From contig NZ_JAQPCG010000012.1 of the NCBI RefSeq assembly GCF_028464145.1, positions 1 through 64,000 on the forward strand: a stretch of DNA of 64,000 nt, written 5' to 3'. The notes beneath the pieces are model-generated. The model was not told the origin of the DNA. It ran no database searches and saw nothing but the letters and a program-made list of their open reading frames with translations. The position numbers and the translations under genes were made by a program. Positions 45,508-47,398 of the stretch are shown here, piece by piece (position 1 is the stretch's first letter; each line of letters opens with the position of its first letter). The stretch comes from Maribacter sp. PR1. GTDB lineage: Bacteria > Bacteroidota > Bacteroidia > Flavobacteriales > Flavobacteriaceae.

Positions 45508-46605
45508 TTAATCAATTATAACTTCGAGACCAGCTTTGTTGGCCTTATATTTTATTTTGGTCATCAAATCATTGTAGCTCCAATTTCTTAATACAAATCC
45601 CTCTCCCTTAGCAATCTCAGATTTTTCCTCCTGATTCAAAAGTATGAGGGTTCCTGCTCTATGTTTAACACAAAAATCAATCAACCTCCTGCTATAGACA
45701 TGCAAACGGTTATGGACATATTTACGTTCCGTTTGACCAAGTCTGTCAACTGCCTTTAGTTTTCTTTTAATGCCTTTACCCGATTTGGAATAGGTCGCCC
45801 CGATCTTTGCCCGTCTAAGTGCCGATTGTATCGCCAGTCTTCTGTATAAAAATTCTTCCTTTGTGCCAATAGTAAGCCTTGTTTTACCAACCTTAACAAC
45901 AATGGGATATTCAAGGGATAAAGAAGCCTCTGCAATAGTCTCTGGCCTTAGGTCATGGCTTTCTTTTTCAATCTCGAATACTGCCAACAAAAAAATCTTG
46001 CCATCTTGTAGCTTGATGTGTGATGTGCACAGTTTAGTCTCTCCCTCGACTACCCGTTCCAACAATTTTCGTTTATCTGTAAAATCCTTGCCTAAGTAGG
46101 TGTGAAAGGGAATCCTGAACAAACGAAAGCAAATGGCTTTTTTCTCTTCATTGTAGTGTAATCCACTCATACCTTCCAAATCAAAAGGGAAGGCCATATC
46201 TCTCCTAAAGTTTTTCAAAGATCGTTCACCGTTCCAATACTCTGGCCTGTTCTTTTTAAATGATGAAATCAATGCCTGGTTCAAATTGGACAATATGTTT
46301 GTGGGGATTTCTCCTTTAAAACGATCTGATACCACTCGATAGGTGGTATTGATCCTAGAACGGTTAAGGATTCCTTTCTCATCCTTCTTTTCATCTGCCA
46401 ATTTATATTTTATCCCTTCTGAGAGATAGAAGAATTCCCTTATCATTTCCTGAACATAAAGGTGGGTCACTATAAGGTTGGCAGCCCTAAAGCATCTGTT
46501 CTGCCATTGATACAGTTTATCCAAGGCCTCTTTTTTTTCTTCTTTGGTAGGGAGGTCTATCAGTAGTTGGATCTTTCGAGTGAGTTTTAGCGTTGACTTT
46601 TCCAT
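45508..46605 (-). CDS. Nuclease-dead Cas12f/TnpB homologue (dCas12f)
   Basis: The 365-residue product aligns by eye to the Cas12f/TnpB family: an N-terminal helical WED/REC part (about 1-190; ALDKLYQWQNRCFRAANLIV), then a RuvC domain with the family element GTKEEFLYRRLAIQSALRR (about 247-265), VHNRLHVYSRRLIDFCVKH and NWSYNDLMTKIKYKANKAGL. At RuvC-I the expected G-I-D-L-G reads SLSLE, so the catalytic Asp is Ser230. At RuvC-II the expected Glu is Asn324 (ILLNQE). The chain stops at GLEVIID, before the zinc finger and third Asp. It should bind RNA and DNA but not cut. It is 1 nt from the sigma factor, with no TnpA or transposon ends. I infer RNA-guided recruitment of that sigma factor. Confidence 0.85.
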   Translation of the reverse strand: MEKSTLKLTRKIQLLIDLPTKEEKKEALDKLYQWQNRCFRAANLIVTHLYVQEMIREFFYLSEGIKYKLADEKKDEKGILNRSRINTTYRVVSDRFKGEIPTNILSNLNQALISSFKKNRPEYWNGERSLKNFRRDMAFPFDLEGMSGLHYNEEKKAICFRLFRIPFHTYLGKDFTDKRKLLERVVEGETKLCTSHIKLQDGKIFLLAVFEIEKESHDLRPETIAEASLSLEYPIVVKVGKTRLTIGTKEEFLYRRLAIQSALRRAKIGATYSKSGKGIKRKLKAVDRLGQTERKYVHNRLHVYSRRLIDFCVKHRAGTLILLNQEEKSEIAKGEGFVLRNWSYNDLMTKIKYKANKAGLEVIID

Positions 46606-46606
46606 G

Positions 46607-47398
46607 TTAGGCTGATTGCAATTGATGTTTTGCTTCCATTAGCCTATAGGCTATCATGAATTCCTGATGCACCTCCTTTTGGGAGAGATTAAGTTCGTTG
46701 GCTATTTCGGAAAAGGAATAACTTAGCTCGCAACGCATTTTAAGCACCCTTGCTTGCTCTTCGGTCATCTCACCAGTAAACTTTATCTCATCTGTCTTGT
46801 TGTTACTGGAATCAAGCTTATTTCCTTGATGGAGAATGGTTTTAATATCTTCAATGGCTTCCTTGATCTCTCTACAGGTTTCATTGATACCTTTTCCCAT
46901 TGCTTTGGAAATGACCTTATACTGAAAGCCATATTTCAAACAAAGATTGATCACATGCCTTTTGCTGTCATCCAATAAGGGCAGGACGCGTTTGATACTT
47001 TCAAACTTCTCTTGTTCCCCTTCCTGAAGTTTAAAATTGTTATTGTCTTCAGCGGGGTCATACCCGACCATATAGTCTTGGTAATTCTCAAAACTCTCCA
47101 ACGAGTGGACTTTCCTGAAAAACTTGTTCCTTGGGCGTGTATAGTATGTAATGCACTCCCTTTTCATCACAAACCGCAGGAAAAAATAAATGTGCTTGGG
47201 TGATTCCAATGTATCTCTATTCACCCACAGCTTCAAGAAGACATCCTGAACCAATGTTTCCACAACAAAACCATCATCGAGAAAGCTCTTGCCCAACCAG
47301 AAAATCGGTTTGTAATATTTGATATAGATTTCCGCAAAAGTTGAAGAGCAACCTTTCTTCAATAATTCAAGATGCCTGTTGTTGATATTTGAAATCAT
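46607..47398 (-). CDS. ECF-type sigma factor with two sigma4-like domains, paired with dCas12f
   Basis: From the ATG at 47398 the product has 263 residues; a TTG at 47428 would place the start inside a -7 box (TACATTTG), so I reject it. Sigma2 covers about 20-95 (FAEIYIKYYKPIFWLGKSFL, VETLVQDVFLKLWVN). A first sigma4-like helix-turn-helix lies at about 138-190 (HVINLCLKYGFQYKVISKAM) and a second at about 210-255 (VLKMRCELSYSFSEIANELN). Ordinary ECF factors have one sigma4 and about 170-200 residues. The gene ends 1 nt before the dCas12f ATG, so the two are co-translated. A dCas12f-guide complex could replace promoter reading by sigma4; the extra domain could be the contact surface. Confidence 0.85.
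   Translation of the reverse strand: MISNINNRHLELLKKGCSSTFAEIYIKYYKPIFWLGKSFLDDGFVVETLVQDVFLKLWVNRDTLESPKHIYFFLRFVMKRECITYYTRPRNKFFRKVHSLESFENYQDYMVGYDPAEDNNNFKLQEGEQEKFESIKRVLPLLDDSKRHVINLCLKYGFQYKVISKAMGKGINETCREIKEAIEDIKTILHQGNKLDSSNNKTDEIKFTGEMTEEQARVLKMRCELSYSFSEIANELNLSQKEVHQEFMIAYRLMEAKHQLQSA

Follow-up and report, generated by a model that had tools for sequence, protein, structure and literature searches.

The closest described relatives of the locus analyzed here are the dCas12f-sigmaE systems, which pair a Cas12f protein lacking its nuclease center with a sigma factor. Targets of this family carry a 5′ G motif and lie upstream of an operon, often a susCD operon, and transcription starts tens of bp beyond the R-loop. 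The PDB entries of the family, to which 9n9c belongs, include dCas12f-gRNA and dCas12f-gRNA-DNA structures as well as an entry with an RpoE chain. A literature search, with subscription papers and bioRxiv largely outside its reach, turned up nothing that treats dCas12f together with sigma factors. A second group of interest is that of the TldRs, which are described as nuclease-dead proteins of the TnpB superfamily that carry a gRNA and control genes (PMC13418256).

The window, i.e., the whole 64,000-nucleotide stretch of Maribacter sp. PR1 DNA that was analyzed, contains a gene pair of this kind. We consider it quite probable that the pair, which likely resides on a mobilizable element, belongs to the known dCas12f-sigmaE family and that a predicted guide RNA leads it to the leader of a susCD operon, starting transcription there.

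The dCas12f homologue and its active-site residues

The 365-aa protein encoded by dcas12f (45508..46605, minus strand) is a Cas12f homologue. Pfam gave nothing above cut-off; PADLOC identified the protein as Cas12f (E 2e-51). A sequence search of the PDB matched its full length to the entries titled "Nuclease-deactivated Cas12f" (9n9c, 9n9m, 9n9o, and 9n9q; E 3e-188), and active Cas12f nucleases appeared in the same search from E 1e-41. An AlphaFold model built from 24 sequences was of moderate quality (mean pLDDT 64, pTM 0.53). With this model as the query, Foldseek ranked 9n9m first (E 1e-42); 9n9m and 9n9c led the list, and Cas12f nucleases came next.

An earlier note on this DNA had placed the lost RuvC-I Asp at Ser230 and the lost RuvC-II Glu at Asn324, and had the chain end before RuvC-III. 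The loss of the Asp stands, but its position is two residues off: in HMMER alignments the RuvC-I Asp of 9nzo, 9nzr, 8hr5, and 9nzp pairs with Ser228. In an alignment of 24 relatives, from which L066 is left out for its broken frame and in which three rows end early through the coordinates chosen, residue 228 is Ser in 23 rows and Cys in one, and Ser230 is found in all 24. For RuvC-II, the pairwise alignments are gapped, and that with 8hr5 pairs the Glu with Glu326 instead, a residue that varies among the relatives. Column 324, where the predicted strand 317–324 ends, is mostly Asn (Asn in 21, Asp in two, and Glu in one of the 24 rows). Thus, Asn324 is favored over Glu326 and is most likely, if not certainly, the equivalent of the RuvC-II Glu, as the note had it. 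A protein-database search returned 1035 relatives at E ≤ 0.001, and all 120 of those listed are 360–374 aa long; they therefore end before RuvC-III, in agreement with the note. The comparison of a structural model with Cas12f, which the note had proposed as a check, leads to the dCas12f of 9n9m. No restored triad appeared, nor did either of the other two results that the note had named as refuting.

To summarize, because Ser228 replaces the Asp, Asn324 likely replaces the Glu, and RuvC-III is absent by length, the protein would be a dCas12f that does not cut DNA. As in the dCas12f-sigmaE family, we are dealing with a Cas12f-fold protein without the RuvC triad, the RuvC-II residue being likely rather than certain.

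The sigma factor and conservation of the gene pair

The gene upstream of dcas12f, sigmaE (46607..47398, minus strand), encodes an ECF-type sigma factor, the putative dCas12f partner; an alternative TTG start is possible at 47428. The ORF list places the two genes one base apart on the minus strand, just where the earlier note had put a sigma factor gene and a Cas12f/TnpB homologue. Its word "fused" was mistaken, as these are two separate genes lying side by side. Over residues 10–261, the sigma factor aligns with the RpoE chain of 9n9q (9n9q_C) at E 4e-113. Its ECF core spans residues 20–188 and is followed by a second region-4-like helix-turn-helix, residues 210–245, which the solved partner has as well.

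A scan of species genomes yielded 53 loci with a dCas12f protein. A sigma factor homologue lies 5′ of dCas12f in 51 of these, at a distance of 65 nt or less in 48. In the two loci where no sigma factor is seen, L047 and L064, dCas12f starts at the very edge of the available sequence. The adjacency is thus more than chance, and the conservation that the earlier note had wished to see checked is there. That is, the neighbor of dcas12f is an ECF sigma factor of the solved type, kept next to it across the loci. Judged by sequence, the protein pair is a new member of the solved family and not a new kind. Among 199 genomes of the same taxonomic family, 11 have a dCas12f match, that in G050 being weak and that in G021 a fragment.

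A predicted guide RNA gene behind dcas12f

A predicted gRNA gene, unseen in the earlier note, sits where one would be expected, behind dcas12f and on the same strand. The predicted scaffold (45431..45496, minus strand) begins 11 nt past the dcas12f stop and includes three hairpins and a TTGTA/TACAA pseudoknot. Directly behind it lies the predicted 16 nt guide, GCGTGGGCTCTCTTAT (45415..45430, minus strand).

By a strict pattern, a conserved scaffold is found within 200 nt 3′ of dcas12f in 48 of the 53 loci. As for the remainder, L024 and L038 have near variants, L054 ends at its contig, and L061 and L062 differ or are without a scaffold there. When 34 scaffold sequences are aligned, 98.7% of the cells are paired, and 4 of 19 pairs show changes on both sides, compared with 1.6 in shuffles; the number of pair types is no higher than in shuffles. 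A covariance model of the scaffold found it in all 40 dCas12f genomes searched, L038 being outside both this search and the matching search for leaders. The same model found the scaffold in 10 of the 199 family genomes, all ten being among the 11 with a dCas12f match.

One guide recurs, almost unchanged, across genera. Of 58 distinct scaffold-plus-guide sequences, 16 carry GCGTGGGCTCTCTTAT exactly, 34 carry it within 3 mismatches, and 24 do not. Past guide position 16–18 the letters vary among loci, so that the shared portion has the look of a short guide. By eye, the solved chain agrees over residues 1–364 with the protein of locus L041 of Allomuricauda taeanensis. The scaffold at L041 aligns with that of the window, and its guide is TTGTGGGATATACGCTA. 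A second guide type, TTGTGGGATAYACGCTA, is found in five genomes. Near matches to TTGTGGGATATACGCTA with a 5′ G and 1–2 mismatches are present at L084, L086, L088, L091, and L096. The near matches to TTGTGGGATATACGCTA and TTGTGGGATAYACGCTA, those to the latter having a 5′ G as well, are directly 3′ of a small ORF ending in KPKNP, 260–340 bp behind the leader described below. For this second guide pattern, a reversed-pattern control gives as many places at 3 mismatches, and three 2-mismatch places lie elsewhere.

In some genomes (L009/L058, L055, L048, L052, and L008), dcas12f is followed by at least two tandem gRNA copies whose guides differ. A one-to-one pairing of the extra gRNAs with particular leaders was sought in multi-gRNA genomes, with no convincing matches.

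The guide matches a leader of susCD operons

Within the window, the gRNA gene itself is the only match to GCGTGGGCTCTCTTAT at 3 mismatches or fewer. Across the window's own genome, a search at up to 2 mismatches found the gRNA gene, one 1-mismatch site, and two 2-mismatch places, whereas the reversed pattern found none. The 1-mismatch site (G000:C23:16851-16866, plus strand) differs at guide position 11 and has a 5′ G. It is inside a conserved leader, 594 bp upstream of susC, which is followed by susD and a PD40/amidohydrolase gene. The site thus has the 5′ G and the place upstream of an operon seen at dCas12f-sigmaE targets. The element initially resembled a 6S hairpin; a 6S RNA (6S-Flavo) was rejected, as the Rfam RF01685 match is on contig C20 and the element on C23.

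In 12 related genomes, the 16-mer is found at 32 places at up to 2 mismatches: 14 gRNAs, 15 places in leader-model matches, and 3 elsewhere. The reversed-pattern control gives 6 places. At least one leader match is present in 10 of the 12 relatives, G210 and G211 having none at 2 mismatches; the G206 match is preceded by a 5′ T, and susC does not follow it.

The leader is present in 38 of the 199 family genomes, and up to eight copies per genome were seen in the search of dCas12f genomes. All 10 gRNA genomes have it versus 28 of the 189 others (Fisher p 2e-8, a value inflated by kinship and by some leaders that belong to the sigmaE-dCas12f operon itself and trained the model). Put the other way, 28 of the 38 leader-bearing genomes are without a gRNA, which indicates that the leader has another role.

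How closely guides fit their leaders was compared in 29 genomes. Guides have a mean of 1.52 mismatches to leaders of their own genome versus 1.53 to those of other genomes. With scrambled guides, the mean number of mismatches to their own leaders rises to 7.1, compared with 1.5 for the real ones. Genome-specific fitting was thus not found in these genomes; since the own fit is no better than the foreign one, guide and leader share a consensus and show no fine co-evolution.

The structured leader

The leader was read in 98 loci, L074:7778-7922 serving as the example. These 98 are a part of all leader places and were partly chosen for lying beside dCas12f; 22 of them are the training set, from which L035, a near copy of L030, was omitted. 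The alignment of the 22 copies supports five nested helixes and a pseudoknot. Changes on both sides of a pair occur in 69 cells versus 24 in shuffles and 10–19 in slid controls. In 77 further copies, which were found with the model and so are aligned towards it, the corresponding numbers are 343, 91, and 21–53. For the pseudoknot, 99.3% of cells are paired, and two of its measures are no higher than in shuffles. A second pairing, mutually exclusive with the nested fold, is between the guide-matching strand and a ATAAGTTGAGTTCCACGCC arm located further downstream. It is paired in 95.7% of cells, with 40 double-change cells versus 14 in shuffles and 0–20 in slid controls.

The motif TAnnTTTG, which we take to be the Bacteroidota minus-7 box, is found 28–46 nt upstream in 79 of the 98 leaders, compared with 2.2% in shuffled upstream sequence. 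A G is directly 5′ of the best guide match in 95 of the 98. The gene behind the leader is susC in 51 cases, a dCas12f-type sigma factor gene in 25 (mostly by selection), and a FecI-type sigma factor gene in two. Other recurrent genes account for seven, and nothing was recognized behind 13, six of which have less than 1 kb of sequence.

In 30 of the 98 copies, the stretch from the leader to susC contains a small ORF of about 39 codons, ending in KKPKxPV/I (FDILFKKKPKNPV/I; e.g., L074:8005-8127). At L209, L210, L211, and L302, a family of proteins of about 110–120 aa is encoded behind the leader in place of susC.

Rfam 15 gave no match at the element, and a literature search for such a leader found nothing. 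We do not claim the leader as a plain intrinsic terminator, since the T-run after the 3′ arm is absent in several copies. The leader shows strong covariation and is a candidate for a new class of structured RNA with a role independent of dCas12f.

Carrier element and neighborhood

The pair is likely carried on a mobilizable element. A MobB-family relaxase gene (DUF5712; 51940..52962, minus strand) and a gene for a BfmA/BtgA-type mobilization protein (52968..53552, minus strand) probably belong to this same carrier. MobB relaxase genes, 94–97% identical, are near the pair in 14 of the 53 loci. The carrier's borders were looked for and not found, as 29400–57000 showed no direct repeat matching the end of tRNA-Val. 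A divergent gene (47532..47795, plus strand) encodes an 87-aa protein without a Pfam or NCBIfam match. The protein is encoded upstream of the pair in 8 of the 53 loci (98–100% identical in six, 83% and 75% in the other two) and is a candidate local regulator.

Directly downstream of the gRNA, PADLOC places SIR2 (E 6e-58) and HerA (E 2e-181) genes at 41971–45100, likely a SIR2-HerA defense pair; a second SIR2-domain gene is at 41027–41875. An FRG-like protein encoded at 36275–37213 matches the PADLOC candidate system PDC-S15 (E 2e-20). The defense-like island also has a 148 nt direct repeat (34639–34786 and 36039–36186; 81% identity, 1400 bp apart).

Proposed mechanism and alternatives

The earlier note had pointed to a family of RNA-guided transcription systems and made this locus a candidate member. 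The full-length PDB matches, the pairing in 51 of 53 loci, the gRNA gene, and the susCD target all speak for that proposal. In the mechanism that we suggest, the scaffold would be transcribed and taken up by dCas12f, the resulting dCas12f-gRNA complex would bind leader DNA, and sigmaE would recruit RNA polymerase, so that the susCD operon would be switched on. Transcription would presumably begin downstream of the R-loop, beyond the leader site. The new mRNA would be without most of the folded leader and would lose its 5′ half; therefore, any control that the leader has over the ordinary upstream promoter would be bypassed. In many loci outside Allomuricauda/Flagellimonas the same leader precedes the sigmaE-dCas12f operon itself, which suggests self-activation, and a positive feedback loop may operate in those loci. 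The window's own operon is without the leader, which is missing there in the window's clade; a search with a stricter filter found one leader in the window's own genome.

It could also be that the dCas12f-gRNA complex acts in the leader as a TldR-like repressor, blocking RNA polymerase, and that the role of the sigma factor is limited to autoregulation or to other sites. Some 110 bp separate the matched site from the likely promoter box upstream of it, so that an R-loop could form a roadblock, and the TldRs are described as nuclease-dead TnpB relatives that do repress (PMC13418256). A pure repressor, however, would not need the dedicated sigma factor that is coupled to dCas12f at nearly every locus, and PDB 9n9q has an RpoE chain together with dCas12f. 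We regard repression as unlikely. Somewhat less likely again is that the guide, a copy of the leader RNA's switching strand, acts on RNA rather than DNA, by pairing with the 3′ arm or by titrating a factor. The strand in question does pair either within the nested fold or with the ATAAGTTGAGTTCCACGCC arm, and both pairings are kept in relatives. Against this, the identity stops after 16–18 nt directly behind a Cas12f-type scaffold and a G precedes the site in almost every leader, both as for a DNA guide, and solved members of the family make R-loops with DNA (title of 9n9m).

Finally, the cassette might have no function at present and be decaying as the passenger of a mobile element. The mobilization genes nearby in 14 loci, the mismatch at the own-genome site, and the dCas12f frames of the L066 and L067 genomes, broken with no read-through, would fit such a view. 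In the window, though, neither of the two frames nor the scaffold is broken, and the 365-aa length and the scaffold are retained across many genera. We find decay very improbable.

Beyond guided activation of susCD by the pair, we entertain a broader idea, more tentatively and with less than even confidence. The guides may have converged on the switching strand of a bistable leader RNA, hitherto undescribed, of susCD operons across Flavobacteriaceae. The guide would then be a 16 nt mobile key that starts transcription past the folded half, unlocking many uptake operons, and in many genomes the key's own operon, whatever the leader senses. Independently of this idea, the near-constant guide and the conserved leader suggest why the guide varies so little across genera: the strand that it appears to read is the best conserved one in a widely distributed leader.

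Comparison with known systems

The window protein resembles the active Cas12f nucleases (9nzo and 9nzr, Al3Cas12f; 8hr5, CnCas12f1; 7wju, AsCas12f1) in fold and sequence over residues 85–362. It differs from them in having Ser228 for the RuvC-I Asp and in ending before RuvC-III. No CRISPR array is present in 45000–47700, and neither an array nor adaptation genes were seen among the neighboring ORFs. With no repeat-spacer array in that segment and the RuvC-I Asp missing, the locus is not assigned to Type V-F CRISPR-Cas.

With the TldRs, as they are described (PMC13418256), the locus shares a nuclease-dead protein of the TnpB superfamily and a gRNA. The TldRs described there are repressors coupled to other genes, e.g., flagellin, whereas the window protein has a sigma factor partner and groups with Cas12f.

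The solved dCas12f-sigmaE systems (9n9c, 9n9m, 9n9o, and 9n9q) match the window's pair in a full-length dCas12f, in the sigma partner, and in gene order. The guides differ: near matches to the TTGTGGGATATACGCTA guide of the solved system lie behind a small ORF, whereas the window's guide matches the leader itself. What is added beyond the known pair is the guide, the susCD leader as its apparent target, and the leader itself. A guide together with an apparent address would give RNA-guided sigma factors a concrete, testable regulon.
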